Positions 23,479 through 47,016 of a stretch of DNA of 64,000 bases are shown here, in pieces. The stretch covers positions 1 to 64,000 of the forward strand of contig JAURZI010000076.1 of the NCBI GenBank assembly GCA_030653435.1, read 5' to 3'. Position numbers and translations under genes: made by a program. Below the pieces are notes generated by a model. The model worked only from the letters and a program-made list of their open reading frames with translations, searched no databases and was not told the DNA's origin. This DNA comes from Methylovulum sp. Lineage in GTDB: Bacteria > Pseudomonadota > Gammaproteobacteria > Methylococcales > Methylomonadaceae. The first letter of the stretch is position 1, and every line of letters begins with the position of its first letter.

Positions 23479-23788
23479 AGGTTGGATATTCCAGGCGTTA
23501 GTCTGTTTGTTTTCCATTTTTAGCCATTTCAACGGCCCCCGCCTTATCTTGTAGGTAATGCTTAGCTTTTCTGCGTAGCCCTAGCCTGTTTTTAGGGCGC
23601 ATCATAAAGATGCCTCACTCCACCGACTGCCTTAGTTTTATACGCTCTATTCTCTGATTCCTGGGAGCCGGATGGCTCAGGCGTTGACTGACAACAGATG
23701 TTAAATGATGCTGGGATGGGTATAATCAGTCCGTTACGGTTTGCAGTGACTATTTTTGCTGTAGTTTAAACAATGTCGGGGATTAAGA
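23479..23788. other. intergenic region before the MCP gene
   Basis: No gene is seen. A TATAAT at 23721-23726 is a possible -10 box for the MCP, without a good -35 at 17 bp. A weak 6-bp hairpin GCCCTA/TAGGGC lies near 23580-23600. Confidence 0.4.
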
Positions 23789-26053: not shown

Positions 26054-26130
26054 AGCCTTCCCGCGCATATTTAAAACGTGATAGGCCCGGCAGTTTATGA
26101 AACTATCCAGGTCTGGTTCCTAGGATATTT

Positions 26131-26148
26131 GCCCGGCTTTAGCTGGGC
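26131..26148 (+). terminator. hairpin after the MCP gene
   Basis: GCCCGGC-TTTA-GCTGGGC forms a 7-bp stem with one G-T pair, about 80 bases after the MCP stop. No T-run follows, so it is only a candidate transcript end. Confidence 0.35.
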
Positions 26149-26283
26149 AGGACAGGGGGTTGCCGCTGCTCGCAACCCCGCGAGCCCTCTAAACGCCCGA
26201 ATCGCGCATTTTTGTTGTCACAACGCGTTAACATGACTCATGTAGAACAGAGGCTCTCTCCCCTTCTCTTTCTATGGTTGTTT

Positions 26284-28089: not shown

Positions 28090-28349
28090 CGCGATGATGC
28101 CAGGGCCGTCTCTTGCCGTAGTTTAATGGGCTAATGACCCGTCATTGAGGCGGCCAAGGCTGATGTGAGGCGCCCAGCTTACCGTCAGAAAGTAAGACAG
28201 CTGGCAGTCCGCTATCAATCCGTTTATGATGATGCCCCCCCGACTAGAGCGGGCGTCCAATAGTTGGCGACGGTTTACATGAGTTTATCCCACCCGGTTT
28301 GACTGGTTAATCCGTAGTGACAACTTACCCATAAAACCCATAGACATAA

Positions 28350-29720
<1,371 letters not shown>

Positions 29721-29927
29721 AGCCAGCCCTGCTGCGTATAATGTTCCGGCAGTTGCCGCTATCCAACTGCCGGATTATTGTCGTTTGGCAATGCCAAAAT
29801 TTCGACACCTATCCGAAGAGCGTTAAGATACGAACATAACCTGCTAATTATTAAGTTGTTTTTTGTTTGGCACAGTATTCGCTTTAGTTATTGCAACGAT
29901 AATGTTTCAAGACACGGAGTAGCGGTA

Positions 29928-30812
29928 ATGCAAAAAACATCAGCAAACCTGGCAATTGTCAGCAACAACACGTTTGAAGCCAGCAAAGTGGTTAATTTGC
30001 ACCACTATGACATCAGTAGCGCTTTGCAAACGACGCTGGAATTTAATGAGCTGATAGCGATCTTCAGCCACAAAATTGACAGCATGATCCCCCATAGCGC
30101 TTATGTTTATACCAACGCTGAATTTGGCCTGGAAGTGAAAAGCGGCGTTTTTACAAAACATTCGTGCAGTTACGCACTTAAGGTTGAGCAGCAACAACTT
30201 GGCGAGTTAACGCTGATGCGTAACTGCCGGTTTACTGAGGCCGAAATCAAATTACTGGAAACGCTGTTGTGTTGCCTGATTTACCCGTTGAAAAATGCAA
30301 CCTTATACCAACAGGCTTTGAAACTGGCGTACACGGATCCGCTGACGCAAATGAACAACAGGGCGTCGTTTAATGACACGCTGAAGCGGGAAATTAACCT
30401 GGCCGTGCGCCAAGCTAAAGCGTTGTCGATCATCTTCGTTGACATTGATAATTTTAAGGCGATCAACGACAGTTACGGGCATGAATGCGGCGATGTAGCG
30501 TTAAGTTCGGTGGCAAAACGCATTAAGGAAAATCTGCGTAGTAGCGATATTGTGTTCAGGGTCGGTGGTGAAGAATTTGTCGTTTTGTTGAGCGACACCT
30601 ATCTTGACGGTGCCAAATTTCTTGCGGAGCGGATACGCAAGTCAATCGAGCTGCATACCTTGTCTTACGATATGGCGGTTATCAAGTTGACGGCAAGCAT
30701 GGGCGTAAGCGTCCTGCACAGTGACGACACCGTCGATACATTTGTCAAGCGTGCCGATGGCGCGATGTACAAAGCCAAACATAACGGCAGAAATCAAGTG
30801 ATGGCGGCTTGA
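29928..30812 (+). CDS. GGDEF diguanylate cyclase with N-terminal GAF-like domain
   Basis: 294 residues from ATG 29928, which has GGAG 9 bases upstream. A longer frame from 29778 has no ribosome binding site. Residues about 25-125 look like a GAF-like sensor (SALQTTLEFNELIAIFSHKID, CSYALKVEQQQLGELTLMRN). Residues about 130-294 form a GGDEF domain with LTQMNNRASF, FVDIDNFKAINDSYGHECGD and an intact VGGEEFVVLL. Soluble, predicted to be an active c-di-GMP synthase. It ends 28 bp before the convergent fliK stop. Confidence 0.93.
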   Translation: MQKTSANLAIVSNNTFEASKVVNLHHYDISSALQTTLEFNELIAIFSHKIDSMIPHSAYVYTNAEFGLEVKSGVFTKHSCSYALKVEQQQLGELTLMRNCRFTEAEIKLLETLLCCLIYPLKNATLYQQALKLAYTDPLTQMNNRASFNDTLKREINLAVRQAKALSIIFVDIDNFKAINDSYGHECGDVALSSVAKRIKENLRSSDIVFRVGGEEFVVLLSDTYLDGAKFLAERIRKSIELHTLSYDMAVIKLTASMGVSVLHSDDTVDTFVKRADGAMYKAKHNGRNQVMAA

Positions 30813-30840
30813 TTGGCCCGCATCACGCTGGCCTGCTAAG

Positions 30841-31941
30841 TTAGGCATACAGGCTTAGCAAGCCTTTTACCACCACCGTCTGGGCATTTTCTGTCTGCCC
30901 GGTGTCGTCAATTCCGCCATCCCCGCGCTGTTGCCACTGTTCGGAGGAGTTGGCAAGGTTTCGGTCTGGGCTGTGCTGTTGTGATGATGAATGTTGCGAT
31001 ACATTGACATCAGCCAGATTGAGCTGTTGGGTATTCAGCATTTCCCTTAATTTGGGCAGCGACGCCTCCAGGGCTTCTTTGACAGCCGCATGCGGGGTCG
31101 TAAAAAGAATCGATGCCTGATCTTGATTGACGTCAATACGCACAGTCATGGGCCCCAGGTGCTCAGGATTCAGTGTGATTTCTGCCGACGGTATCGTCTT
31201 GTTATACATCCATACAATCTGTTCCCCCAGTTCCTTGTTCCAGCCCGGATGGTTTAGCGGTTTGGCTATCGCGGTAAACTCTGTTTTGTTGTCAATAAGC
31301 CGTTGCTGAGGGTTTATGCCGGGTAACGTGTTTTCCGGTTCGGTTAGGGCGGATGGGTCGGACAGCGACGTTTTGTCGGACAGGCCTGCATTATCAAGCG
31401 ATGGCAAGGTTGTTTCCTTTGCATCCGTAGTCGATTCAAGAAAAGCGGCTTTACTAGGCAAGCTGTCAACCAGCGAAATATCATCTTCAGAAAGGCCTGG
31501 ACTGGCTGCTTCAGCCGGGCGATTTGCAACCAGCTGCCCGTTTAACAGCATTAAGGCGCTGCTGCCTTGTGGGTTGATTGCGGTGTCGGCATTCTGCATC
31601 ACAGGTTTTAACACGTCGGCTAATGCCGCTAACGTCGATTCAAGGTCGGTATCGGTGTGCGTTTTGTCCGCTGACTCCAGTTTCTTGTCGGTTATCGCGG
31701 CAACGTCGTCGTTATCGGGTGCGCGCGCTTGCCCGCCATTATCGGTCTGAGGTTTATGTTGTGTTTCATTGGCGTGGCGTTGCTCGGGACGATGATGTGC
31801 TGGTTTTGACAGTTTCATCTGGCTTTTGAATGTGTCAGTAAATTCATGGGCAACAGCCGTTTTTGCCGAGGCAGGACTGGAATCTGTCCGGATGGTATGT
31901 GTGCCGGACAGTGTTGATAAATTGGTGCCTTCGATATTCAT
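30841..31941 (-). CDS. fliK: flagellar hook-length control protein FliK
   Basis: 366 residues. A long low-complexity, Asp/Ser/Thr-rich N-terminal part (the molecular ruler) and a C-terminal Flg_hook domain (about 225-320: ELGEQIVWMYNKTIPSAEITLNPEHLGPMTVRI, LPKLREMLNTQQLNLADVNV) that signals the export switch. The start has AGGAGA upstream. It is transcribed away from fleQ. Flagellar gene location supports motility. Confidence 0.9.
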   Translation of the reverse strand: MNIEGTNLSTLSGTHTIRTDSSPASAKTAVAHEFTDTFKSQMKLSKPAHHRPEQRHANETQHKPQTDNGGQARAPDNDDVAAITDKKLESADKTHTDTDLESTLAALADVLKPVMQNADTAINPQGSSALMLLNGQLVANRPAEAASPGLSEDDISLVDSLPSKAAFLESTTDAKETTLPSLDNAGLSDKTSLSDPSALTEPENTLPGINPQQRLIDNKTEFTAIAKPLNHPGWNKELGEQIVWMYNKTIPSAEITLNPEHLGPMTVRIDVNQDQASILFTTPHAAVKEALEASLPKLREMLNTQQLNLADVNVSQHSSSQQHSPDRNLANSSEQWQQRGDGGIDDTGQTENAQTVVVKGLLSLYA

Positions 31942-32072
31942 AACATTCTCCTGAACATTGTTGTTGCAATATTATGCGCCATGTCATTGCCTGCAAGTAA
32001 AAAATGTTGGTGTTGACATCAGGGATGATTCCGGCACGATGTTGAATCTAGGGCTTTTGTCAGTACATTGGC

Positions 32073-32078
32073 TATAAT
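32073..32078 (+). promoter_or_regulatory. candidate -10 box for fleQ
   Basis: A perfect TATAAT lies about 156 bp before the fleQ start. A good -35 at 17 bp is not evident. Assigned from sequence only. Confidence 0.3.
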
Positions 32079-32233
32079 AAGGTGGCGTGCAGGCGTATTT
32101 TTATGCCGTTCGTGTGGAAGTGGTGGACATCGGGTACGAACGGGGCAGCAGACCATGGTGATGTGTCTATCAAAAACAAATCGCCGTTAGTGGGCAAGTT
32201 TGCATATTAATTTTTAGTGTTGAGTATAAAAAT

Positions 32234-33721
32234 ATGACGTTGCCGCGTATTTTGGTGGTTGATGACAATAAGGCAAGAACCCAGCAACTGGAAATAGTCC
32301 TGCGGTTTATGGAATATCAGGTAGAGACGGCAACTTCGCTGAATTATGATGAATGCGTCGACGAAGCCGCCACGTTGTTGGTTATTTTTTTAGGCAACGG
32401 TATCGCCAAACAGGCGGCCGTGCTCAGGGCGCTTGAAGAACGGACCCATAAGAGCCCGGTTATTTTGCTCATAGACAAAGGCTGTGCCCATCAGCTGACG
32501 ACGGCAATGGGCAATCTGGTGTTTCATGTCCTCGAATGGCCGGTCACCTATCCCGAATTGAAGCGGGTTATCGATCAATTACCAAATGCCTCCTCGCCCC
32601 AGCCTGTGCATCCAGATAACTCAAAGGAAAATCCGGGTACACACAACTTTTCAGCCATTGAGCGCTTGCAAGGCATCAGCCGCGCCATTGCCAATGTCCG
32701 CAAATTAATCCATCAGGTTGCTGAATCGGATGCCACCGTATTAATTCTGGGTGAGTCGGGCACCGGCAAAGAAGTGGTTGCCAGGGCGCTGCATGAAACA
32801 TCCGGGCGTCGGTCAAAATCCTTCGTGCCGATCAATTGCGGGGCCATTCCTGGCGAGTTGCTGGAAAGCGAATTGTTCGGGCATGAAAAAGGCGCGTTTA
32901 CCGGCGCATTAAGCGCAAGGCAAGGGCGTTTTGAAATGGCTGAAGGCGGCACGCTGTTCCTGGACGAAATTGGCGATATGCCGATGACCATGCAGGTCAA
33001 GTTATTGCGGGTTTTGCAGGAACGCACCTTTGAACGGGTGGGCAGCAATAAGACGATACATTGTGATGTCAGGATCATTGCAGCGACACACCGGTCCCTC
33101 GACGATGAGATTAAAGACAATCGCTTTAGGGAGGACTTGTTTTATCGCCTGAATGTATTTCCCATCGAGATGCCGGCCTTAAGGGAACGGCCTGAAGACA
33201 TACCGCTGCTGGTGGCCGATCTGGTTGCCAGAATGCAGGCCTCCAACCGGGGTTCAGTACAGCTGACGAATGCTGCGCTGGCAGTGCTGATGCAGCATGA
33301 ATGGCCGGGTAATATCAGAGAACTGGCTAACCTGATAGAAAGACTGGCCATTATTTATCCCAAAGGCTTGGTTGACGTGGCCGATTTGCCGGAAAAATTC
33401 CGGCATTACAACGTGCCTGAAGGTCTGGTCGCGACGGCGGTTACCGAAGCCGTTGTCTGCGATACCGATGATGATAATGAGCCGGTGGTGCTAGCCGGGG
33501 TGTCAGAGGATTTTATCGGCAATGGTGCAGGGGCTGTGCATTTGGCACAATTGCCGGAACAAGGCATTGATCTGAAAGAATACCTGAATATTATGGAAAT
33601 TGATCTGATACGCCAGGCATTAGAAGAATGCAACGGCGTCGTTGCACATGCCGCCAAACGTCTCAATATGCGCCGCACCACATTGGTTGAAAAATTGCGT
33701 AAGTATGAGTTGCAACGTTAA
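32234..33721 (+). CDS. fleQ: FleQ-type sigma-54-dependent flagellar regulator
   Basis: 495 residues. The N-terminal receiver-like FleQ domain (ILVVDDNKARTQQLEIVL) has no clear phosphorylation site. The AAA+ domain has Walker A GESGTGKEVVARALHE, the sigma-54 contact loop GAFTGA, Walker B GTLFLDEIGDMP and an Arg-rich sensor region. The C-terminal Fis-type helix-turn-helix is NGVVAHAAKRLNMRRTTLVEKL. FleQ is the master flagellar activator and a c-di-GMP sensor in Pseudomonas. A sigma-54 promoter lies just downstream at 33944, in front of the glycan-type operon. Confidence 0.93.
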   Translation: MTLPRILVVDDNKARTQQLEIVLRFMEYQVETATSLNYDECVDEAATLLVIFLGNGIAKQAAVLRALEERTHKSPVILLIDKGCAHQLTTAMGNLVFHVLEWPVTYPELKRVIDQLPNASSPQPVHPDNSKENPGTHNFSAIERLQGISRAIANVRKLIHQVAESDATVLILGESGTGKEVVARALHETSGRRSKSFVPINCGAIPGELLESELFGHEKGAFTGALSARQGRFEMAEGGTLFLDEIGDMPMTMQVKLLRVLQERTFERVGSNKTIHCDVRIIAATHRSLDDEIKDNRFREDLFYRLNVFPIEMPALRERPEDIPLLVADLVARMQASNRGSVQLTNAALAVLMQHEWPGNIRELANLIERLAIIYPKGLVDVADLPEKFRHYNVPEGLVATAVTEAVVCDTDDDNEPVVLAGVSEDFIGNGAGAVHLAQLPEQGIDLKEYLNIMEIDLIRQALEECNGVVAHAAKRLNMRRTTLVEKLRKYELQR

Positions 33722-33859
33722 ACCCGCCCCAGCTCTTCATTTTATCCTGCTTCCTGGCCGGAATGCCGGTTTTCATGTCACGCACAGGCCTCTGGCTCCG
33801 TGGCCAGCTGTTAAGCTGCCAGACCCGATTTTTCCAGCCTGCTGTTGACCTATCAACAG

Positions 33860-33896
33860 GCAAGCAACAACTGTTGCTTGCCAAGCAACAGTTGTT
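33860..33896 (+). terminator. overlapping hairpins after fleQ
   Basis: Two mutually exclusive perfect stems share bases. GCAAGCAACA/TGTTGCTTGC (33860-33869 with 33872-33881) has a 2-base loop. AACAACTGTTGCTT/AAGCAACAGTTGTT (33866-33879 with 33883-33896) has a 3-base loop. The second, 14 bp, is the likelier end of the fleQ transcript. Confidence 0.6.
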
Positions 33897-33943
33897 ATGC
33901 GGTAATTAAAAAAATAATACTTTTTATTCAATGGGTTGTGGTT

Positions 33944-33959
33944 TGGTATGGCGATTGCT
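33944..33959 (+). promoter_or_regulatory. sigma-54 (-24/-12) promoter
   Basis: TGGTATG-GCGA-TTGCT matches the consensus TGGCACG-N4-TTGCW with the invariant GG and GC elements exactly 12 bases apart. It is 40 bp before the ATG of the Mop-domain gene and 223 bp after the fleQ stop, so FleQ is the obvious candidate activator. Identified by eye. Confidence 0.65.
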
Positions 33960-33999
33960 TTAGTGTTTTTTATCTCAACCTACCATTGTGAGCAAGACT

Positions 34000-34209
34000 A
34001 TGAACATTTCTGACATTAACACTAATAATCACATCAAAGGCAAAATTCGGCACATCCATACCCGTGATGTCATTTCTGAAGTTGAGCTGGACACTTCAGC
34101 GGGCATCATCACCTCAATCATTACGACCAGCTCACTAAAGTCGTTAGGTCTGGTGGTTGGGCAAGAAGCCGTCGCGGTAGTAAAAACTACCCAGTTTGCG
34201 TTGGCTTAG
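34000..34209 (+). CDS. Mop/TOBE-domain molybdate-binding-like protein
   Basis: 69 residues from ATG 34000. A GTG at 33988 would add four. One Mop domain is recognisable: NNHIKGKIRHIHTRDVISEVELDTSAGIITSIITTSSLKSLGLVVGQEAVAVVKTTQF. Single Mop proteins (molbindins) bind molybdate or tungstate as oligomers. It is the first gene after the sigma-54 promoter, 20 bp before the next gene. Why an oxyanion binder should lead a glycan-type operon is not clear; it may be an independent gene sharing the promoter. Confidence 0.85.
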   Translation: MNISDINTNNHIKGKIRHIHTRDVISEVELDTSAGIITSIITTSSLKSLGLVVGQEAVAVVKTTQFALA

Positions 34210-34229
34210 GCTTGGTCCGTATCCGTGCC

Positions 34230-35396
34230 ATGGCAGAAATCAGGAGTTTGATCCGTGCGCCTGTGATCCGGTTACAGGGCGGCGAGTTTGTTATTGAGCT
34301 GGATTCGCATGATTTGATTGCGCCCAATACCCGCGGGATACGCGTCACGTGCCAAGACGGCGATGGGTTTACCGTCGGCGTGGAACCTTACGATGTGCCC
34401 GCAGCGGATATTTGTGGGATTCGCGTCAGTTGTGGCGATGATAAGGTATTTTCCGTTAACTGCAGGTCGCAGTTAGGCGACAATGGCAAGCAGTGCTTGG
34501 TGTTTTCGTTGGCGGAACTGGGCATACCGTCGTTGACTAAAGTGGAGTTGGTCTATGCCAATGGCTGCATCGATATCAGCGACAGTTTTTTGCATTATCA
34601 GTTGGACAGCTCCAGGCTGAATGATAATGTCTACCTTACCAGCGTATTGTTCAATGCGTCTGCCCGGCCTTTTTCCGGCGATGACCTGTTTGTTATTACC
34701 TATGCGTATCTGAAGGCATTACCGCTGGATAACCCGAATTTCGGCGGTTTGATAACTTTGCTGTCCTATCGCATCACCGACAGGTTGGATGACAGGGAGC
34801 ATGTGGTTAACGAGGTCTACGGGGTTTATCGGCGCTACCGGGATGTGGTGCATAGCCATGATGCTATCGCCTTTCGATGGTTGGTTTCCTGCTCCAGCGC
34901 CTTGGCGACGTCGTTGCTGTCTATCGGGTCGGTTACCCAGGCTGAGGATGTTGTCGATGTTGCGCTTAACATGATTATCCATCCCAGCTTTAATCCGCTG
35001 GTGCATCAAAACTATACCCTGCTGTTGTTCCAGGCCGGTTTAATCAAGGCTTGGAAAGGACGTTTTGACGAGGCATCCAGTTTGTTTATCGCGGCCGTCA
35101 ATGCCGGGCGTTATGGCATGATCGATTTGTTGCATCCTCAAAACAGTTGGGTGCTGGGGCAAATCAGCGATTGCCATAAATTCCTGTACATCATAGAGGC
35201 GGCACATAGCTCGGCGCTGGCATGCACCCGCAACCATCTGCCGCCCCAGTCGCGTTTCGCGCCGCTAAAAACGGCACCTAAACTACAGATCAATTACAGG
35301 ACTATCTTTGACAGGTTTGCCTGTTTCAAAAAAAAGTCCCCGCCTTTTTTTGAGCAAGTGTTGCACAAAATGCAAACCCGCCAGAGCGGTCAGTAA
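34230..35396 (+). CDS. uncharacterised protein with duplicated beta motif and helical repeats
   Basis: 388 residues from ATG 34230 (MAEIRSLI). TTG 34212 is an alternative. I do not recognise a family. The N-terminal 130 residues are beta-rich and contain a duplicated unit (GIRVTCQDGDGFTVGV and GIRVSCGDDKVFSVNC, about 37 residues apart). Residues about 150-345 are helical, TPR-like, with segments such as LVHQNYTLLLFQAGLIKAWKGRFDEASSLFIAAVNAGRYG. The tail is basic. No signal peptide or membrane span. It lies between the Mop gene and the aldolase (23 bp before it) and probably shares their transcript. Function unknown. Confidence 0.75.
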   Translation: MAEIRSLIRAPVIRLQGGEFVIELDSHDLIAPNTRGIRVTCQDGDGFTVGVEPYDVPAADICGIRVSCGDDKVFSVNCRSQLGDNGKQCLVFSLAELGIPSLTKVELVYANGCIDISDSFLHYQLDSSRLNDNVYLTSVLFNASARPFSGDDLFVITYAYLKALPLDNPNFGGLITLLSYRITDRLDDREHVVNEVYGVYRRYRDVVHSHDAIAFRWLVSCSSALATSLLSIGSVTQAEDVVDVALNMIIHPSFNPLVHQNYTLLLFQAGLIKAWKGRFDEASSLFIAAVNAGRYGMIDLLHPQNSWVLGQISDCHKFLYIIEAAHSSALACTRNHLPPQSRFAPLKTAPKLQINYRTIFDRFACFKKKSPPFFEQVLHKMQTRQSGQ

Positions 35397-35419
35397 ATTA
35401 ATACATCCAATTAATATCA

Positions 35420-37003
35420 ATGAAAACATTATCGAAGCAGTCCAAGCTGCTGGATTGCACGTTGCGTGATGGGGGCTATTACACCCAGTGGGAATTCGAC
35501 CCGGATTTTGTCAATGAGTATCTGGATCTGGTTGCACGCAGTCCGATAAACGATATAGAAATCGGTTATCGCAGCCCTGAAAAAGACAGTTATTTCGGCC
35601 GGTTTTTTTACCTGCCGAGACAGGCGCTGATTGAAGCCAAGCAGCGTTTGCGCGAAGACCAACGGCTGGGCCTGATGCTAAATCTTAAAGATGTTGATGA
35701 AGAGAGCATTGGGCATTTTCTCGGCGATATACAAGGGGTTGTCGATCTGGTCCGATTTGCAGTGGCACCCGGCGAGATAGAGCGGGCTTTGCGTTTGCAC
35801 CAGTGTGTTTTGCGCCAGGGCTTTGCTTGCGGCCTGAACATTATGCACTTGAGCAAATGGAGCCACGAGGTTGAGGCCGTGCTCGCTCCGTTGGCGGAGG
35901 TCGAACATCTGGATTGCCTGTCGCTGGTTGACAGTTATGGCGGTTGCTTTCCCGATGAAGTCGGGGCGGCCATCACCCGCGCCTGTGCGATATTTCCCGG
36001 CGATGTCGGTTTTCATGGCCATGATAACGCAGGGTTGGCTTTTGCCAATTCGCTCAGGGCCTTGCAAGCGGGTGCACGGTCAATTGATGCGACTTTTATG
36101 GGCATGGGGCGCGGGGCGGGGAATCTGAAGACCGAGTTGATGCTGACCTATATGGGCATCGCAACGGGTACCGAGATACCTTATTTCGAGTTGAGCAAAT
36201 TCCTGGACAGAATGGCAAAGCTGCATGCGGTCTATCAATGGGGGACATCGCTGCCGTATATGTATTCCAGCCTTTCTGGCCAGGAACAAGGCAAGGTCAT
36301 GGATTGGTTGATCAAAGACCGCTTTGACCCGTCCGTGGTCATGGGCGCGTTGCAGGATAAACTCGTTGTGCATGGCGGCTCGGATGGCCTGTCGTTCCCT
36401 AAGCTGGCCGATTATTCGGTAATTTCAGGTCGCCGCCGCTTTATTCTGGTCGGCGGCGGTGACAGTGCGCGCCGCGCCGCTTCGGCTATCGGCCATTTCG
36501 GCCTTGATGACACCGTTATCCTGCACACCAGCCTTAAATCGACCGACTATTTCGACGATCTGACCGGGCATTGCATAGCCTTGTCTGGGCACGAAATCCA
36601 GAAGAGTTCCGAGGCGAGGCTGGCAGTGTTGGCCCGGCACATTGCCTGTTGGGTGATCTCGCCGCCGCCGCGCTTTGCCGGCAGTGTGCCTAACGTCGGC
36701 ACCGTCCGTCAGGTTAATCCGGCGGCCTTGTTTGCCATTGCACAAATCGCCGGCGTAACTGTGCCCAGTCCGATGCAGCTGGGCTTAAGCGCCGCTGTCG
36801 AATGCGGCGCAGCAGATGTCATGCTGATCGGTTTCGACGGTTATACCGACGACGGCGAATCCGCCCATGCCAAAAACGACGAAACGGCGTCAACCATCGC
36901 CGAGTATTTCTCGGTGGCCAATGTGCCCCGATTGCTCAGTCTGGCGCCGACCCTGTACCGGATTCCGGTGCGTTCGTTGCATGCCATGGTACAGGCGTTT
37001 TGA
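35420..37003 (+). CDS. DRE-TIM aldolase with extra C-terminal domain
   Basis: 527 residues. Residues about 8-290 form a TIM barrel of the HMG-CoA lyase/4-hydroxy-2-oxovalerate aldolase superfamily: LLDCTLRDGGYYTQW (metal-binding D17), LSLVDSYGG, GFHGHDNAGLAFANSL (metal-binding HxH) and GMGRGAGNLKTELML. These enzymes make or break carbon bonds next to a 2-keto acid such as pyruvate. Residues about 335-527 are an additional Rossmann-like domain (ILVGGGDSARRAASAIG, IGFDGYTDDG) absent from normal aldolases. The following HAD phosphatase and CMP-sugar synthase suggest it builds a 2-keto sugar acid (inference). The stop is 11 bp before the HAD gene. Confidence 0.85.
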   Translation: MKTLSKQSKLLDCTLRDGGYYTQWEFDPDFVNEYLDLVARSPINDIEIGYRSPEKDSYFGRFFYLPRQALIEAKQRLREDQRLGLMLNLKDVDEESIGHFLGDIQGVVDLVRFAVAPGEIERALRLHQCVLRQGFACGLNIMHLSKWSHEVEAVLAPLAEVEHLDCLSLVDSYGGCFPDEVGAAITRACAIFPGDVGFHGHDNAGLAFANSLRALQAGARSIDATFMGMGRGAGNLKTELMLTYMGIATGTEIPYFELSKFLDRMAKLHAVYQWGTSLPYMYSSLSGQEQGKVMDWLIKDRFDPSVVMGALQDKLVVHGGSDGLSFPKLADYSVISGRRRFILVGGGDSARRAASAIGHFGLDDTVILHTSLKSTDYFDDLTGHCIALSGHEIQKSSEARLAVLARHIACWVISPPPRFAGSVPNVGTVRQVNPAALFAIAQIAGVTVPSPMQLGLSAAVECGAADVMLIGFDGYTDDGESAHAKNDETASTIAEYFSVANVPRLLSLAPTLYRIPVRSLHAMVQAF

Positions 37004-37014
37004 CAGGGCAGGGC

Positions 37015-37683
37015 ATGCCGTTGCCGGCCATTGTCATCGTCGATTGCGACGGTGTGTTGCTGGATTCGAACACGATGAAAATCGCCGCTTTCCGGACGAC
37101 ATTGGCAGATTATCCAGATGACGCCGTGGCTCGGTTTTCGACGTATCAGGCGCGCAATTTTGGTCGTTCGCGCTATGTGTTGTTCAAGGAGTTTTTCGGG
37201 TTTCTGGGACGGGAACCGGATGCCGGCGAAGTGGATGGCTTGCTTGGGCGCTATGCTTCGGTGGTCCGCGCCGCTTATCTGGATGCGCCGCTGACGCCGG
37301 GATGTGTGGACACCTTGCAACGCTTGGCCGACTTGAGGCCGGTTTATGTCGCATCCGGTTCGGATCAGGAGGAGCTGCGTTGGGTCATGCAGCAACGCTC
37401 GCTAGCGCCTTATTTTGCCGGGGTATTCGGTTCGCCGCAGAGCAAGGCCGATATTTTGGCGTCATTAACCCCGGCTAACGGCGGACGGGCGTTGTTTATA
37501 GGCGATGCCAGGGCCGATTTCGACGCGGCGCAACGCTACGATTGGTGTGATTTTATTTACATGAGCCGATTTTCGACAGCGGCCAGCGACATGGATAGCC
37601 TAGCCAGACAGGCGGGCTTACCGGTTATTGACGTGTTGCCCGAACTTTGGTCGCTACTGTCTGAAGAGCCTGCGTTTAACTAG
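37015..37683 (+). CDS. HAD-superfamily sugar-phosphate phosphatase
   Basis: 222 residues from ATG 37015, which keeps it downstream of the aldolase stop. A longer overlapping frame was not used. Motif I VIVDCDGVLLDSN has the nucleophile D10 and acid/base D12. Motif II is VASGSDQ, the motif III Lys lies in SPQSKADIL, and motif IV is LFIGDARADFDAA. The cap (about 17-90) is like phosphoglycolate phosphatase/beta-phosphoglucomutase. By analogy with the KDO-8-phosphate and Neu5Ac-9-phosphate routes it probably removes phosphate from the aldolase product before CMP activation (inference). Confidence 0.85.
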   Translation: MPLPAIVIVDCDGVLLDSNTMKIAAFRTTLADYPDDAVARFSTYQARNFGRSRYVLFKEFFGFLGREPDAGEVDGLLGRYASVVRAAYLDAPLTPGCVDTLQRLADLRPVYVASGSDQEELRWVMQQRSLAPYFAGVFGSPQSKADILASLTPANGGRALFIGDARADFDAAQRYDWCDFIYMSRFSTAASDMDSLARQAGLPVIDVLPELWSLLSEEPAFN

Positions 37684-37738
37684 GCGTATCCTTAAAACCC
37701 ATCCTGCAAGACTGACATTAACCTGTGAGGCGCCAGCC

Positions 37739-38503
37739 ATGAACACCACCAAAGTGACGGCTATTGTCCCTTGCCGCAAGGGTAGCCAGCGCGTTCTTAA
37801 CAAGAATACCCGGCCTTTTGGAGGCTTACAGCACGGATTGCTGGAACTCAAGCTGAAGCAACTGGATGCGGTTCCCCGTATAACCGAAATTGTCGTCACG
37901 ACGAATGATCCTGCCGTTATCGCGATAGTTGAGGCTATCCGCACGCAATTGGTCAAACCGGTCATCCTCGACCTTAGGCCCGATGAATATGCTGCCGATG
38001 ATTCGCTGCAAGGGTTGATCGGTTATCTGGCCGACGCCATCGACACCGATGTGGTTGCATGGACGCACGTCACGTCGCCGCTGTTTACGCCGCCGCTTTA
38101 TGAAGCCGCGCTGGCAGCATACGCGCAAGCCAGGCAAACACAGTCTGCGGACAGCCTGATGGCGGTCGATGTCGCGCAAACCTTTGCGTTGCGTTCGGGC
38201 ACGTGGATCAGTCATGACAGTAGCGTTAAGCGCTGGCCGCGCACCCAGGATCTGGAAAAAATCTTTCTCGTCAACAGCGCGTTGTTTGTCATCGACCAGC
38301 CATTGATGAAAGCGCTACAAGATCGTGTCGGGCTTCAGCCGTTGCTGTTCGAAACGCCGTCTATACACGGCTTTGACATTGATTGGGAAGAAGATTTTAC
38401 GTTGGGTGAAGTCTTGTACAAGGCATTGGCCGACGGCATCCCTCAAGTCAATAGCCCCGTAGCGGTAACCTATGGAGTGGATAAAGCCTATGCACCCGCC
38501 TAA
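37739..38503 (+). CDS. acylneuraminate-type cytidylyltransferase
   Basis: 254 residues from ATG 37739 with TGAGG 9 bases upstream. Nucleotide-binding motif AIVPCRKGSQRVLNKNTRPFGG near the start and the C-terminal FDIDWEEDFTLGEVLYKAL are diagnostic of the CMP-NeuAc/KDO synthetase family, which transfers CMP from CTP to a 2-keto sugar acid. No NeuB, PseI, Leg or Kds synthase lies nearby, but a DRE-TIM aldolase does, so the sugar may be unusual. The stop overlaps the start region of the glycosyltransferase gene. Confidence 0.88.
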   Translation: MNTTKVTAIVPCRKGSQRVLNKNTRPFGGLQHGLLELKLKQLDAVPRITEIVVTTNDPAVIAIVEAIRTQLVKPVILDLRPDEYAADDSLQGLIGYLADAIDTDVVAWTHVTSPLFTPPLYEAALAAYAQARQTQSADSLMAVDVAQTFALRSGTWISHDSSVKRWPRTQDLEKIFLVNSALFVIDQPLMKALQDRVGLQPLLFETPSIHGFDIDWEEDFTLGEVLYKALADGIPQVNSPVAVTYGVDKAYAPA

Positions 38504-41435
38504 AAAAATAGCTATAGTGGGTTCATCGCATGTGTCATGGTGGGAGCATGCGATAGCAACCCGGCAAATCCCCGCCCCCTATCACGATATTAGCTTTATT
38601 GGTCGTGGTGCAACGCCGATTTGGGGGGATTTTATCCGTTCAGGCATAGCCGGTATCGAAGATCAGGTCGATCAGGTGTTCTTGTTGCTAGGCGATTTTC
38701 GCCACGGTAACCGTATCTTGAAAAACCCTAATTTCTTACGCACCGGCGATATTTCAGGTAATTTTCATAATATTGAGAAAGAACTGATTTCTGATGAGAA
38801 CGACAAGATTCTGTTGGAATTGATCGTGAAAGCCTTGCAGGGACTGCGTGACAGATTGGGCCCAAAACTCCGCATCCTGTTTTGGTCGCTGACTTTTCGC
38901 GAATTTCAGAGCCTTGAAAATGGTCGTTATGGCGGGCGAGGACATTATCGGCATCCCGTTTGGAACCTCGGCGATCTGATAGAGCAGTTCCGCGATGTCG
39001 CCATCGATACCTTACCGTTGACGTCCTTGCCTATCCACAGTTTTTACCTGGATGCCAGCGGCCATCCCAACGTCAAAGGGCACGCGTTTTTATACCGCTT
39101 ATTAAACGGGCAGGACGCGTTAGCCGCTTATGAATCGGTGTGCGCCGATTTTGAAACCTTTAGCCCACTGTTGTTTCCGCCGGACGCCGACCGTTATCGG
39201 GTCAATATTACCGGCGATTCCATAGCCTATAAAGCCTTGGAGAAAGCGGTGCGTACGCGTTATTTCCTGATGCCGGCCAGTTGGGAAGTCAATGGCTTAA
39301 AAACCAGTCTGGCGGCCGGCAACGCGTATGACCGCATTATTTATCTGTCAGGGCTGCATTTTCAGGACGAAGACCCTCAGCAAATCAAGGCCAGGATTGC
39401 CGAAGAAAGGGCACTAGTCGGGCAACTGAGTCTTGGCGGGCCAGTGAGTGTTATTTTTTGGGACCAGTGGGCGCGTGAAGTCGTATCGACACGGCCTGAA
39501 TACGCCAAGCATTATTTGCCTAAATCGGCTGAAGCTTATGCCGAACGCATCGAACAGGCGTTTGCGCCCTATCAAGTCAGGCGCTTGAGCGCCATTGCCA
39601 GCGATGACGCCAATGGCTTGGTTGAATTCGGCGGCTCTTTCAATCCTAGCGGTAAAGGTTATACGGTATTGTTCCATCTGATGTTGGCCGGGACCGGGTT
39701 GGAGACGGCTTTTGCGCGCTATGGGCAATTGGTCGCAGCTTGTCTGGAGCAGTCGCAAACCGCTCTTGTGGCAGGATTGCCGTCGCCTGGAAGTATATCA
39801 GTTGGTACACGGCTGGCGCGATTACGGGGTGGTTTTGACGGTGTGGGCGCTACCGGCGAACTCAGTGGTTGGGCAATAGATCCTGACGAGCCCGGATACC
39901 GGGTTCCCGTCCATTTGTTGGTCGGCAATCAAGCTATAGCAAGGCTGGTCGCCGATCAGTTCTATGAGGATCTTGAACAGGCCGGTAGCAACGGCGGATA
40001 TTGGGGTTTTTCGTCAGGCCCATTAGCTTTGTCGGCGCTGAGACATCTGCATGCCGGCATTGAAATTTCTGCGTGTTTCGACCCGGAAGGTCGGTTTGCC
40101 TTATCCGGCAGCCCGGTAAAACTCGACCAGGACGCGCTGACCCGGCTGGCGCTGGCTGCATTAAAACCGTGGCAAACGGCGTTTCATGCGCCGGGACAGC
40201 AGGGCGGCGATTTCCGTGTGCCGCGCGATGGCAGCAGTTTGTTTATAGCCAAAAAAATGGCGGCAGAGCATGATCCGTCGATTTACCCGCGCAGTGATGT
40301 TGCGCTGGATTATGGCGTGGTCGAAAGCGTCAAACGGTTACCGGCCTTCTTCAAAGCCGTCGTCCGGGCGCGGGTGATCGGCGGCGTTTATTGCGAAGAC
40401 GGCAGTCTGGAGATCTCGGCCTTAGGCAGCAGTGCATTGGGGCAATTCCAGCTTGCCGATAAAATGCTGAGCACAAAGATTACCCGCCATATCGACACCG
40501 AATGTCTGTATGGCGGCATGATACTCAACCATTACGGCCATTTTATTATCGAGGGCTTGGCGCGCGCCCATGCCTTTTATCGGCACGCAGCGCTGCCTAT
40601 CGTTTTTACCTTGCCTTACGCGGACATCACTTGCGCCACTGGGCTTCCGACGTATATCCGGTCTATGTTTGAACTGCTGGGCATACCTCTGGAGCGGATT
40701 ATGCTGATCCAGGAAACGACCTCTTTTAAGAAACTGGTGATTCCCAAAGTCGGCATGCGCTGGTGGGATTATCTCGATGTCGACCATCAGCGCATTATGG
40801 CGGCGCAGGTCAAAGCGTCTATGGGACCGGATTATCCGCGCGGCAAGCACGGCAGCGTTTATCTGTCCCGATCCAGATTAAGCACCAACCATGACGGCAA
40901 TGTCATCTGCGGCGAGGCCGAATTTGAAAATTATCTCAAGAGCGAAGGTTTTACTGTGGTGTATCCCGAAACCCTGACGGTCAAGGAGCAGGTTGGCCTA
41001 TTATGTGCCGCGCAACATGCCGTCGGCTTTGTCGGCAGCGCCTTCCATACTTTGCTGTTATGTGCAGATGCGCCGGAAAAAATAGTCTACCTGAACCGGA
41101 AAAAAGCGGCTGTTAACCCACAGTTTCCGTTGATCGATAAGGTCTTGGGCATCGACGGCCAGTATCTCGACGGTGTTGTCCGCCATTCAGCCCGGATAAC
41201 CTTGGTGGACTTTGAATCTGTCTCAAGGTCTTTGATGGCCTTAGGCTTGGTGCAGAAACCTTTTGATGCCGGACAGCATGATTTGGAAACAGAGTTCAGT
41301 TTATTGTCCGATTGGCTGGCTATAAAAAGGCAGGGCAAGGGCTTGTCGGCACAGGACAGGATGCGCCTGGAAGCCATTTCGGACCGATGCCTGAACCAAA
41401 TCGTCGTGCAAGAAGCGCAGGCTTTGTTGTGCTAA
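38490..41435 (+). CDS. SGNH-like/GT61 fusion glycosyltransferase
   Basis: 981 residues from ATG 38490 (MHPPKKIAIVG). Residues about 6-200 start with IAIVGSSHVSWWEHAI and look like an SGNH-type hydrolase fold. A second, related segment (about 225-420) begins YRVNITGDSIAYKAL. Residues about 455-545 (GELSGWAIDPDEPGYRVPVHLLV) resemble the beta-sandwich insert of large surface glycosyltransferases. Residues about 575-960 form a GT61/DUF563 domain (GGMILNHYGHFIIEGLARAHAFY, VYLSRSRLS, HAVGFVGSAFHTLLLC). Its donor may be the CMP-sugar made by the upstream genes. The N-terminal half is paralogous to the next protein. Confidence 0.75.
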   Translation: MHPPKKIAIVGSSHVSWWEHAIATRQIPAPYHDISFIGRGATPIWGDFIRSGIAGIEDQVDQVFLLLGDFRHGNRILKNPNFLRTGDISGNFHNIEKELISDENDKILLELIVKALQGLRDRLGPKLRILFWSLTFREFQSLENGRYGGRGHYRHPVWNLGDLIEQFRDVAIDTLPLTSLPIHSFYLDASGHPNVKGHAFLYRLLNGQDALAAYESVCADFETFSPLLFPPDADRYRVNITGDSIAYKALEKAVRTRYFLMPASWEVNGLKTSLAAGNAYDRIIYLSGLHFQDEDPQQIKARIAEERALVGQLSLGGPVSVIFWDQWAREVVSTRPEYAKHYLPKSAEAYAERIEQAFAPYQVRRLSAIASDDANGLVEFGGSFNPSGKGYTVLFHLMLAGTGLETAFARYGQLVAACLEQSQTALVAGLPSPGSISVGTRLARLRGGFDGVGATGELSGWAIDPDEPGYRVPVHLLVGNQAIARLVADQFYEDLEQAGSNGGYWGFSSGPLALSALRHLHAGIEISACFDPEGRFALSGSPVKLDQDALTRLALAALKPWQTAFHAPGQQGGDFRVPRDGSSLFIAKKMAAEHDPSIYPRSDVALDYGVVESVKRLPAFFKAVVRARVIGGVYCEDGSLEISALGSSALGQFQLADKMLSTKITRHIDTECLYGGMILNHYGHFIIEGLARAHAFYRHAALPIVFTLPYADITCATGLPTYIRSMFELLGIPLERIMLIQETTSFKKLVIPKVGMRWWDYLDVDHQRIMAAQVKASMGPDYPRGKHGSVYLSRSRLSTNHDGNVICGEAEFENYLKSEGFTVVYPETLTVKEQVGLLCAAQHAVGFVGSAFHTLLLCADAPEKIVYLNRKKAAVNPQFPLIDKVLGIDGQYLDGVVRHSARITLVDFESVSRSLMALGLVQKPFDAGQHDLETEFSLLSDWLAIKRQGKGLSAQDRMRLEAISDRCLNQIVVQEAQALLC

Positions 41436-41451
41436 ATCGCGGGTAGAGGAC

Positions 41452-42753
41452 ATGGCTAAAAAAATACTGGTGATCGGCCCCAGCCATGTCAAAAGGCTGG
41501 AACATGCGTTGCTTTGCGGCATACTGCCGGCACCTGAAGTTACCGTCGATTTTTTAGGGCGCGACGGCATGCCGGTTTGGCACCCGGTGTTTAGTCGGCA
41601 TTTGCAATCGGTCGATTACGACCATATTTTGGTGATAGTCGGTGATTTTCGGTTTGGTAATAAGATTTTTGCCAACACTGAAGCAAAAAATGCCGGTGGT
41701 GTCGGTGTTGCCAAGGCGCTGATAAACCTTGATAACGATGACAAGCTGTATCAAAAAAGTCTGGCTAAAATTGATGAATGGATAGCCGTTTTCGGCAATA
41801 AGATACGGTTTTTATTCTGGGATTTATTGGGTAGGGAATTCGCCAACAGACGGGACAATAAATATACCGTCGCCGGGCAATATAGCCACCCTAGCTGGAA
41901 TTATGACGCTATAGCCGAACGTTACCGTAGCCATATCGTCGATGTCGGCTTTCTTAAGGATATCTTCATGGACAGGTTGACGGTGGACAGCGCCAACCAT
42001 TTCAGCATGTTTGCGTACTTGATGATGGTGGATGCGCTTCGGCGCACCGGGCATGAAACTGCGGTTAAAAAAGAGGAGCTGGCATTCAAAATCAAGGTAT
42101 TGGATGAAAAATTTAACCGTTTGCCGCTGAGCGGTATCTATCTGGTTTGCGATCCGCCCATCCTTAACCGCTTGACCCAAGCCTTGGACAAAGGCGCTTT
42201 GCCTCGTCATAACGGGTTGACACTGATCAGCACGCAGGCATTTATTGCCCGGAAACTGCCGTCCACTCTGGACGCTAGTGCCAAAGTGCTTTATTTAAGC
42301 AGTTTCAGGCGGGTTGAGGGTGAAGACAATACCGCCAAATACCAGCGCTTAGTCAATACCCTAGCCAAGTTTGGCCTGCGTCAAGACAGGTTTAACATCG
42401 TATTTTATGATTATTCGTGTGATTACGTTTTTGAGTTGAGAAAACAACATAGCAAACAGCCCTGCCACTTGCCAGATTCGGCGGATGTCTATTCGTTGGC
42501 AAGCTTGCAGAAAAGGTATCCGAACACTATCGGCTATCCACTTGATAATTTTCAGTTTATACATTCGCTGTTTGAATTGAGCGGAAGATTGCCCAATTTT
42601 AAAGGTTATTTCTTTATCTTGATGTCAGCCAGACTGGGGCAAACTTCAGCGGAATATGCCAATTTTTATTATGATTATTTTATCGACGATGTATTTGCAA
42701 CGGCAGACAAGGGTGTAGCTGATATTCCCGACATTTCATCGGTAGCTTGCTAA
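41452..42753 (+). CDS. SGNH-like paralogue of the preceding protein's N-terminal half
   Basis: 433 residues. ILVIGPSHVKRLEHALLCGILPAP, LVIVGDFRFGNKIF, FLFWDLLGREF and GQYSHPSWNYD align in order with the preceding protein (IVGSSHVSWWEHAI, LLLGDFRHGNRIL, LFWSLTFREF, GHYRHPVWNLG). A second domain begins near 225 (LSGIYLVCDPPILNRL). The glycosyltransferase part is absent. The conserved GxSH start and GDFR block define a family I cannot name; an acyl- or glycan-modifying role is possible. Last gene of the operon, 17 bp after the previous stop. Confidence 0.7.
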   Translation: MAKKILVIGPSHVKRLEHALLCGILPAPEVTVDFLGRDGMPVWHPVFSRHLQSVDYDHILVIVGDFRFGNKIFANTEAKNAGGVGVAKALINLDNDDKLYQKSLAKIDEWIAVFGNKIRFLFWDLLGREFANRRDNKYTVAGQYSHPSWNYDAIAERYRSHIVDVGFLKDIFMDRLTVDSANHFSMFAYLMMVDALRRTGHETAVKKEELAFKIKVLDEKFNRLPLSGIYLVCDPPILNRLTQALDKGALPRHNGLTLISTQAFIARKLPSTLDASAKVLYLSSFRRVEGEDNTAKYQRLVNTLAKFGLRQDRFNIVFYDYSCDYVFELRKQHSKQPCHLPDSADVYSLASLQKRYPNTIGYPLDNFQFIHSLFELSGRLPNFKGYFFILMSARLGQTSAEYANFYYDYFIDDVFATADKGVADIPDISSVAC

Positions 42754-42765
42754 GAGACGTTTTTA

Positions 42766-43081
42766 CTCCCATCTGATCGAGAAAACGTCTAAGTTTTGAA
42801 AACCGGCAACGCCTACCGTCATACAAAACGTAGGGCGTGCCGCGCGCGCCTTTTCCGGTACCGAACCGCCTCACCACAGCTCAATCCTGCCGAATACCTG
42901 AACCGTGAAGCGTTGCGAAACGGTTTATACCAAGCGCCTTGTACGTTAACTCTGCAAGAAAAGACCGCGCGTATCAAAGCTCAGCTGACACGCGGTTCGC
43001 CCACGAACGACCAGAAAATGTGCAATCTGATCGGTTTCATTGCCCGTTCTAAGATTAAACGGTTTTAGAGTGAGGTGGGAG
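42766..43081 (+). mobile_element. IS630-type mini-element (internal deletion derivative)
   Basis: A 316-bp element with imperfect terminal repeats (CTCCCATCT at the left, AGGTGGGAG at the right) flanked by TA, the target-site duplication expected for IS630/Tc1 elements. The left 106 bp match the inverted copy at 6537-6642. The right part holds the last 65 codons of an IS630-type transposase. An internal deletion joined the two, so it could move only with a helper transposase. Confidence 0.8.
42872..43068 (+). pseudogene. IS630-type transposase C-terminal remnant
   Basis: The reading frame gives SPQLNPAEYLNREALRNGLY and continues to RSKIKRF before the stop at 43066. SPxLNPxEYLN, with the final catalytic Glu, is the C-terminal DDE signature of IS630-family transposases. 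The N-terminal and central parts are missing. Confidence 0.75.
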
Positions 43082-43173
43082 TAATATTCATCTGATTGTT
43101 AAATGTTCAAGGTTGAAGCAAAAAACTGTTACCCTGATTTGAACTAGGCCACACTTATCATCATGTAGCTCTT

Positions 43174-44629
43174 TTAATTCGTTGGAGGTGCCTTGTCCAA
43201 CTTCCGACAAGTTTCTCCTCGACAATGACCAAAAGCAATGGCCCAACGCAACATCTCGCGCATTTTGTCCGTCCAGAGTGGATTTGCCTGTTGACTCTCC
43301 ATTTCATAGGGATCGGAAGTGTTAAGATAAAACTCCTGCTCCAATGTGATGTAGTGGATATATTTTTCTGTTGTCGTTAGCAACCCAAAGTAACTGGGCG
43401 GCCAAGCGTAATTTAAATCAGGGAAAGGGTGATACAAGTCTTCTTGATAGGATAGGACAATCGCTTGCCGCCATTCACTGGCTGGAATAGGCTCCGGTCT
43501 TAGCACAGGCACGAGACTACGACCATCGACGAAAGACGCGGCGCTCCCCCCCCCCCCACTCGACGAAAGTCTGAGCAAGGTCGGAGTTGGCAACAAGATG
43601 ATCCCGACTAACACCGGCTGGAATTCCAGGCCCCCATATCCATGCGGGAACTATATTTGCTGCTTCGTAAGGCGTAATCTTAGCATCCGTGATGCGATGC
43701 TCACCATAATGCCAGCCATTATCCGAAACAAAAACGAAATAAGTGTTATTGAGAACGTCATGCTTGGCGAGCGCCTCCATTACCGATTTGATCAAATCCT
43801 CAACCGAAAGTAAAGAACGCAACCGATTGCGAAATTGATTTAACCTCGTGGGAAAATTGGCCGGTTTCTTGTGTGATTTCTGAACATACATAGGTTTATC
43901 TGAGACATCTTCTTCGTTGAATGACGGGCTTTGCGGCGTACTCTTGGCCTGGCTGAACCTCTCTTCATGGCGATGGGCAGGGATTGCTGGTAAATGAGGG
44001 GATGTGCTAGCTATATAAAGAAACATTGGCTCATTGTAATGATTATCGATAAAGCGTACAGCAAGGCGAGCCAATTCATCATCGACGTGGGGTCCGGGCT
44101 CTTTGTATTCCACTACAACACCGTTCTCGTTGAGGGTAAAGTTGTAACCTTTTGGTTGGGCGCCTGCATACCATTCGCTCCATCCAGGCGGAACATAGCT
44201 CTTTTTAACCGAGTTTTCCTGCATGTATCCATTAAGATATTTCCCAAATAGTCCGGTAGTATAGCCGGCCCGTTGAAGCCAAACGGCTACTGTTTCTTTC
44301 TCAAAGCCCAGTTGGTAAAAAGTATAGAAGCCTGGGTCAATATCCATATGAGTATTGCTGGAATACTGACCCCTTAATATCGACGCTCTCGACGGAACGC
44401 ACCAAGGGGTAGGCGTAACAAACCGTGTGAACTGTATACCAGCTTTAGCTAACTGGCTAAGATAAGGCATATATTTAATATCAGCTGTAGCCATATCATC
44501 AACAAGAAACAGAACTATGTTCGGTTTTGCAACTGTGGTTGTCTGGCTAACCGATGACTCTCCTTGCGCCAACTCAAAGTAAATTGTTGTTACAATCACA
44601 GAAATCAAAATTAGCAGATGTTTGTTCAT
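43174..44629 (-). pseudogene. arylsulfatase split by a G12 tract (possibly phase-variable)
   Basis: From ATG 44629 there is a signal peptide (MNKHLLILISVIVTTIYFELAQG), the metal-binding VLFLVDDM and the sulfatase formylglycine motif CVPSRASIL, with GKYLNGY and FVSDNGWHYGEH further on. The frame runs into a G12 tract (minus strand of 43546-43557) and then stops at 43517. In another frame the protein continues directly after the tract (SAASFVDGRSLVPVLR) to 43174. With 11 G the whole protein of about 485 residues would be in frame. So it is either an off-phase contingency gene, a sequencing error or an early pseudogene. It lies next to the mini-element. Confidence 0.8.
43546..43557 (-). repeat. 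G12 homopolymer inside the sulfatase gene
   Basis: Twelve consecutive C on the plus strand. Length 11 (or 14) would restore the sulfatase reading frame; the present length gives a premature stop after nine more codons. Confidence 0.85.
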
Positions 44630-45011
44630 ATTAGTGTTTATGCACAATTAGACAAGGTACTTAACGGATTGAAATAAATGGTTTTTTATTTAACTAAAAA
44701 AGGCTGGGCTATGAGATTTACAATAACCTTTGGAGTGATGCTTTGCCTCTCCTCCCGTATTTCGTGGGCTGTATAAAGATTCTGTGTTACGACAAACTAT
44801 GTTCAGCAGTTATTGTGCATAAGCTCTATTGTAAAGTAAAGTGAGTAAGACGCAGGTAAGCAAAAAATAGGATAGTGTTATCAGTTAGCCCTCCTATCCG
44901 CATACTGCTTGGATAAGATGCCAGGTCATCGGCTTTTTTCCGGCTGCGATAAGCGGAATTAGGGCGGGCTTAGCTTGCAATCTGCAATATTTTCCTTTAA
45001 CTTAAGCGGTC
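44630..45011. other. intergenic region upstream of the thiC riboswitch
   Basis: No gene was found. A possible thiC promoter is TTGCAA (44975-44980), a 17-base spacer and TAACTT (44998-45003), just before the riboswitch. The sulfatase promoter must also lie here on the minus strand. Confidence 0.4.
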
Positions 45012-45112
45012 ATCCGTAAAGGCTAGGGGTGCTTCATGAGCTATCATGAGGCTGAGAGAAACCCTTCGAACCTGACTCCGGTTAATACCGGCGTAGGAAA
45101 GCCATGACTTCC
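45012..45112 (+). promoter_or_regulatory. TPP riboswitch (thi box) of thiC
   Basis: The conserved core is complete: GGGGTGC, then GGCTGAGAGAAACCCTT, GAACCTGA, CCGGTTAATACCGGCGTAGGAAA. It is placed 36 bp before the thiC ATG, as usual. On binding thiamine pyrophosphate it should lower thiC expression, probably by masking the ribosome binding site since no T-run terminator follows. Confidence 0.95.
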
Positions 45113-45144
45113 CTGCGCCTTGTTGTTTTTGTTGATGGAGATAA

Positions 45145-47016
<1,872 letters not shown>

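Follow-up and report, generated by a model that had tools for sequence, protein, structure and literature searches.

A recurrent aldolase and cytidylyltransferase gene module proposed to supply CMP-activated ulosonic acids without NeuB or KdsA

The window analysed here comprises 64,000 nucleotides of contig JAURZI010000076.1 from a Methylovulum-like methanotroph, and within it seven same-strand (+) open reading frames (ORFs), free of internal stops, span 33988-42753. Three of these genes encode a two-domain DRE-TIM aldolase, a HAD phosphatase and a cytidylyltransferase, and this core would make a cytidine monophosphate (CMP)-activated 3-deoxy-2-ulosonic acid for a surface glycan, parallel to the NeuB and KdsA routes. 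This reading builds on a computed gene association, on folds, on conserved metal and enolate residues and on a genome search without a NeuB match; from these we infer the reactions, the aldehyde, the product and the use of the product, and we put its probability at about 0.6. In the proposed route, the DRE-TIM domain would join the metal enolate of pyruvate to a phosphorylated aldehyde; the phosphate would then be taken off by the HAD enzyme, and the cytidylyltransferase would convert the acid to CMP-ulosonate. Because the core genes alone are shared by at least half of the loci described below, with varying flanks, the aldehyde would probably be a housekeeping metabolite such as a phosphate of a triose, tetrose or pentose; in loci that lack the HAD enzyme it may be a free sugar. 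The C-terminal domain of the aldolase, which resembles Maf and CstII, probably binds the CMP-sugar, as a transferase or a regulator.

Recurrence of the core genes across bacteria

Relatives of the aldolase were collected with an alignment (A1) built from ten aldolases of the window's own genome and its family. A scan of the genome_contigs collection with A1 returned at least 570 relatives, the best 80 of which were kept as loci; since they were picked by aldolase sequence only, their neighbours were not selected for. In a six-frame profile search, a same-strand cytidylyltransferase was found within 3 kb of the aldolase in 72 of the 80 loci, and in 70 of the 75 in which the contig runs at least 1 kb past the aldolase. 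A related HAD gene lay within 3.5 kb in 45 of the 80, and all 45 have the cytidylyltransferase too. The cytidylyltransferase and HAD profiles were themselves built from recurring neighbours of the aldolase, so that both families are defined by recurrence, and NCBIfam confirms that the former are cytidylyltransferases. Some of the loci are near copies (for example L038/L039 and L091/L104 in the aldolase tree) and the 80 are therefore not independent events. The association between aldolase and cytidylyltransferase is far above expectation for chance neighbours.

Homologues of the aldolase that lack its C-terminal domain had a cytidylyltransferase nearby in only 1 of 11 cases. Among a further 13 loci, all three two-domain homologues, two of them from Leisingera, have an adjacent cytidylyltransferase and HAD gene, and in two Leisingera plasmid records three genes in a row are annotated as aldolase, 3-deoxy-manno-octulosonate cytidylyltransferase and HAD. 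Single-domain relatives on plasmids of Mesorhizobium and Paraburkholderia (L119, L120) stand beside SDR, HAD-IA and amino-acid-type genes and belong to a different pathway, probably not a glycan one. In the Pelagibacteraceae loci L081 and L086 another protein follows the two-domain aldolase, with no cytidylyltransferase in reach; radical SAM and B12-binding families are matched by the L081 version of this protein. Long HAD ORFs in L097 and L102 had looked like cytidylyltransferase-HAD fusions, a candidate that was discarded: these long ORFs had been called out of frame, and the six-frame search finds a separate cytidylyltransferase there, as it does in L072.

The hosts named in the records belong to Bacteroidota, Pelagibacteraceae, Gamma-, Beta- and Alphaproteobacteria, Campylobacterota and Bacillota, with a Microthrix. 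The aldolase is rare in a sample of 398 Pseudomonadota genomes, where at least six gave matches (E≤1e-40, with at most three candidates scored per genome, which makes this a lower bound); the window's own genome (G000) and G575 have two-domain lengths (open frames of 533-567 residues), and the other four have 357-400 residues. The own genome holds a second pair on contig 143, consisting of an aldolase 33% identical to that of the window (567-residue frame) and a cytidylyltransferase 77% identical, and neither the search for NeuB nor that for HAD relatives gave a match on that contig. No aldolase relative was found in the viral contigs and phages searched. The module is thus widespread across several phyla and not peculiar to the window, and the inference drawn in the first-pass annotation, which was made from the window alone, has held better than expected. 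That annotation knew of no described pathway with this combination, and our search of open PubMed Central text agrees with it, finding no paper that describes the aldolase, HAD and cytidylyltransferase gene set. The module is apparently undescribed, a variant of CMP-ulosonate logic with a different carbon-bond enzyme.

The two-domain aldolase

A structure search with a predicted model gave the N-terminal domain a DRE-TIM pyruvate-aldolase fold. The residues R16, D17, H199 and H201 (R-D ... H-x-H) are invariant in all 74 members and also align to 1nvm; we take them to be the metal ligands and the enolate arginine. The fold, the Arg-Asp pair and the His-x-His pattern are shared with the 4-hydroxy-2-oxovalerate aldolases (HOA) DmpG, BphI and HsaF. 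In contrast to these, the window enzyme has a Tyr in place of the catalytic His, an extra C-terminal domain and biosynthetic neighbours, and no aldehyde dehydrogenase is found among the seven window genes. It scores 64.5 bits against TIGR03217 (cut-off 286) and 81.8 against NF006049 (cut-off 229). A member of the same subfamily has a structure, PDB 3dxi (putative aldolase BVU_2661 of Bacteroides vulgatus), which is 39-40% identical in the N-terminal domain and differs in covering that domain only; nothing relevant on 3dxi or BVU_2661 was found in open PubMed Central text.

The whole 527-residue model shows only the barrel in the structure search, and the second domain was modelled separately. 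The predicted fold of this domain alone is closest to Maf and the CstII sialyltransferases. The top Foldseek matches were weak (SteA, E 6e-4; CstII, E 1e-3), and VIA re-ranking placed Maf, CstII and MptE on top, although families absent there could still fit. A motif is also comparable with that of Maf and CstII (GT42), GFDGY against GIDFY. Unlike these proteins, the domain is fused to an aldolase. By sequence columns, no conserved His stands out near the expected catalytic place (presumably His188 in CstII), a His being present at position 483 in 4 of 74 members. The window's domain matched no family, and the Maf family PF01973 matches 23 of the 74 members at E≤0.01 (best 1.2e-6). The domain may instead be a kinase or pyrophosphokinase related to MptE and not a CMP-sugar domain, which would leave the rest of the proposed route intact; we consider this possible, though doubtful. 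Sialyltransferase families, PF00777 and PF07388, appear among the neighbours as well, matched by one representative apiece of two clusters that are present in seven loci each, and they fit the proposed route. A bolder version of the proposal is that of a bifunctional enzyme: its aldolase domain would form the acid by joining pyruvate to a housekeeping aldehyde phosphate, and its sialyltransferase-like domain would transfer it once a separate cytidylyltransferase has activated it. This would constitute a third widespread bacterial route to CMP-3-deoxy-ulosonic acids, with short products (six to eight carbons) that NeuB-based surveys do not count, and we offer it as a speculation that is rather unlikely to hold in full.

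Sugar class and competing explanations

The NeuA/PseF-like and KdsB-like cytidylyltransferase families both activate 3-deoxy-ulosonic acids. The comparison of partner enzymes covered 71 sequences, namely 70 from the 72 loci (two fragments omitted) and that of the window. Clustering assigned 39 of them, including the window's, to the NeuA/PseF-like class and 32 to the KdsB-like class, with L071, L096 and L101 as distant members of the former (17-25% identical to the window enzyme). The PseF model picks up 63 of the 71 and the KdsB subfamily PRK13368 picks up 38, both at E≤1e-5 and in overlapping sets. A quickly built aldolase tree with 78 rows, 72 of them labelled by partner class, requires at least 13 switches of class among the labelled rows; with the unlabelled rows counted as a group of their own, the starred branches by themselves call for 12 switches for either class. 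The count is soft, as the tree carries only approximate likelihood-ratio (SH-aLRT) support and has two very long rows. Clustering supplied the labels except for L005, L014 and L016, which were assigned by BLAST similarity, and L017, whose label follows the NCBIfam match that the same gene gave. Clear switches, with a clade support of 100, are those of L058 (KdsB-like) beside L038/L039 (NeuA-like) and of L040 beside L044. Such switching is as expected if the aldolase product is a substrate for either class. Because both classes activate 3-deoxy-ulosonic acids, the product of the aldolase would, on the simplest interpretation, be one of them.

The window's own genome is 99.95% complete by a tool estimate. 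The search for NeuB (PF03102) gave no match in it and was positive in 9 of 14 control genomes. NeuB was likewise not found in four genomes of the same genus or in G010, while G030 and G575 each carry a copy. A search with PF00793 returned one canonical KdsA (G000:C156), which sits elsewhere than in the operon, and one AroG-type 3-deoxy-arabino-heptulosonate 7-phosphate synthase, and nothing else; a canonical KdsB (300.6 bits) is located at G000:C4. The window cytidylyltransferase matches the best KdsB model only at E 0.0048 (16.1 bits), and the operon has no match to the KdsB equivalog. With the pairing described above, these results support well, as genomics, what the first-pass annotation had put forward, a parallel route using a pyruvate-type DRE-TIM aldolase for the carbon-bond step. 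They also make it unlikely that the cytidylyltransferase simply acts on ordinary sugars of the Neu5Ac (N-acetylneuraminic acid) type or on Kdo (3-deoxy-manno-octulosonic acid) with its synthase elsewhere, given that no NeuB was found and that KdsA and KdsB lie elsewhere, the window enzyme being of another class.

The aldolase might also be a non-orthologous replacement that uses pyruvate to make an ordinary acid already described, be it Kdo, Kdn, Neu5Ac or pseudaminic acid, in which case the chemistry would be new and the sugar not. The numerous KdsB-like partners and PRK13368 matches fit such a replacement, as do the weak match of the window cytidylyltransferase to PseF (43.5 bits, equivalog cut-off 205.7) and the PseB gene that adjoins the module in the record of L011/L015/L105. 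We nevertheless judge it unlikely. The canonical KdsA and KdsB of the own genome leave a second Kdo route unneeded, and Pfam gives no hexosamine-modifying family in the operon, where five of the seven genes have a match and two have none. In addition, a further cytidylyltransferase in four of the seven loci that carry NeuB suggests two distinct products, although none was found in the other three.

The proposed route resembles the NeuB-dependent pathways to Neu5Ac, pseudaminic acid and legionaminic acid in ending with a NeuA/PseF-like cytidylyltransferase and in its expected product, a CMP-3-deoxy-ulosonic acid for surface glycans. It differs from them in that a pyruvate-type DRE-TIM aldolase takes the place of the phosphoenolpyruvate-dependent NeuB, which was not found in the genome, and in the lack of a matched hexosamine-modifying family in the operon. 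With the Kdo pathway (KdsD, KdsA, KdsC, KdsB) it shares the order of carbon-carbon bond formation, phosphatase and cytidylyltransferase, and many relatives use a KdsB-like enzyme, whereas a DRE-TIM aldolase stands for KdsA and another kind of HAD protein for KdsC.

Several observations weigh against the proposed route. NeuB is present somewhere in 33 of 50 aldolase-bearing genomes sampled from the 80 loci (the other 17 gave no match, which speaks for the route) and within the fetched stretch in 7 of the 80 loci; to judge from these genomes, the module occurs alongside NeuB routes without requiring them. Five of the 75 loci with sufficient contig lack a same-strand cytidylyltransferase (L066, L081, L086, L098 and L103). 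L098 has no second aldolase domain, and the other four are two-domain loci in which the contig continues; in L103 the cytidylyltransferase is next door on the opposite strand. No related HAD gene was found near the aldolase in 35 of the 80 loci, some of them cut by contig ends. Whole-genome searches of G050 and G103, both of which retain the other two core genes, likewise gave no relative of the window's HAD enzyme at E≤1e-5. Because of this absence, dephosphorylation in these two may be carried out by another enzyme or not be needed. The HOA catalytic His, which we take to be His21 of DmpG after D-G-S, corresponds to Tyr20 in the window enzyme, and this position is Tyr in 73 and Phe in one of the 74 members. 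Moreover, six loci (L014, L016, L071, L073, L094, L096) encode a second pyruvate aldolase of the HpaI/GarL type, assigned by NCBIfam through L010 and L012 for L014 and L016 and by BLAST clustering for the other four, and in these loci it may be the true carbon-carbon enzyme, with the DRE-TIM enzyme performing another step. The Tyr, the second aldolase and the partial occurrence of the HAD gene would all suit a DRE-TIM protein that carries out some other pyruvate- or ketoacid-dependent step, outside the sugar carbon skeleton, with the cytidylyltransferase activating something else. We regard this as distinctly improbable beside the proposed ulosonic acid route.

Surveys of bacterial sialic-acid-like sugars look for NeuB. 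If this module is a route to CMP-ulosonates that needs neither NeuB nor KdsA, current counts of such sugars would be too low in Bacteroidota, marine Pelagibacteraceae, methanotrophs and other groups, and the structural-genomics orphan 3dxi would gain a function. Glycan assembly would also gain a new instance of pyruvate-aldolase chemistry, and the fusion of an aldolase to a sialyltransferase-like domain could be put to the test.

The Methylovulum operon and its surroundings

The seven genes stand on one strand in the order given by the first-pass annotation (Table 1), and their gaps, calculated from the coordinates, are 2, 23, 11, 55, -14 and 16 bases, within the 55 bases it had allowed. Its protein labels stood in part: Pfam agrees with the Mop/TOBE, aldolase, HAD, cytidylyltransferase and GT61 assignments, whereas it leaves the SGNH-like label of the last two proteins unconfirmed, with nothing at E≤1 beyond the GT61 part. 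The blocks GSSH/GPSH, GDFRxGN and D...H are visible in these two and are motif-like only. The 394-residue protein matched no family in Pfam or NCBIfam at E≤1.

Table 1. Features of the seven-gene operon in the window
Feature	Position	Strand	Remarks
Mop-like small TOBE protein	33988-34209	+	GTG start; PF03459, 40.3 bits (cut-off 22.3)
394-residue protein, no family	34212-35396	+	adjoins the Methylovulum-group version of the locus
Two-domain aldolase, 527 residues	35420-37003	+	PF00682 HMGL-like, 68.5 bits (cut-off 29)
Aldolase N-terminal DRE-TIM/HOA-like catalytic barrel (residues 1-315)	35420-36364	+	
Aldolase C-terminal Maf/CstII/MptE-like domain (residues 332-527)	36413-37003	+	
HAD phosphatase	37015-37683	+	PF00702, 45.7 bits (cut-off 26.4); longer start in ORF list, 36802
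Cytidylyltransferase, NeuA/PseF-like class	37739-38503	+	PF02348, 28.1 bits (cut-off 22.6); start in ORF list, 37628
Large GT61 protein	38490-41435	+	PF04577 at residues 682-859, 48.5 bits (cut-off 27); N-terminal SGNH-like label unconfirmed
Last gene, paralogous to the GT61 protein's N-terminal part	41452-42753	+	no Pfam match; SGNH-like label unconfirmed

The best named relative of the aldolase in the scan is from a Methylovulum metagenome-assembled genome (86%); the value for M. psychrotolerans is 78%. The Mop-like gene and the 394-residue protein (57-75% identical to six relatives) precede the aldolase in other Methylovulum-group genomes, and tblastn to L006-L009 placed Mop-like homologues directly upstream in G050, G115 and G024 and a partial one in G103. 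The Mop-like gene is a conserved upstream neighbour in the genus and unlikely to have a role in the sugar route. At the other end, the GT61 protein is 62-65% identical to homologues in L018, L020 and L021, and the last protein 65% identical to L020:14052-15380. Promoter-like sites (9, against 9.9 in shuffles, standard deviation 3.0) and terminator-like sites (18, against 13.1, standard deviation 3.8) were near chance and neither show nor contradict a single transcript, and a sigma-54-type pattern gave 15 two-mismatch matches in the window, fewer than the shuffled mean of 29.9.

Directly upstream lie fliK (PF02120; 30841-31941, -) and a FleQ-like regulator gene (PF06490, PF00158; 32234-33721, +), so the position noted in the first-pass annotation is confirmed by Pfam. 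The role in flagellin modification that it had suggested from this position is not supported: the module itself does recur, but no fliK or fleQ homologue stands beside it in five relatives (L018, L020, L026, L028 and L029, with at least 4.5 kb upstream of the aldolase). The module is often found among polysaccharide genes elsewhere. A scan of six window proteins from the interval 21092-30812 matched four of them to a chemotaxis receptor, cyclic di-GMP enzymes and PurB, and the other two to nothing. A locus for flagellin or flagellar modification is therefore very unlikely, for all the proximity of the two flagellar genes.

Downstream of the operon, a short ORF at 42796-43068 (+) resembles, on reading the sequence, the end of a transposase. 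A sulfatase-like gene at 43174-44647 (-) seems to be split into overlapping frames, ORFs 43517-44647 and 43174-43614; the former, the one covered by the scan, matches sulfatase models below their cut-offs. The sole Rfam match across 30500-45500 is a thiamine pyrophosphate riboswitch (RF00059, 69.1 bits) at 45015-45116 (+), just upstream of a 622-residue ORF (45148-47016) that is presumably thiC.

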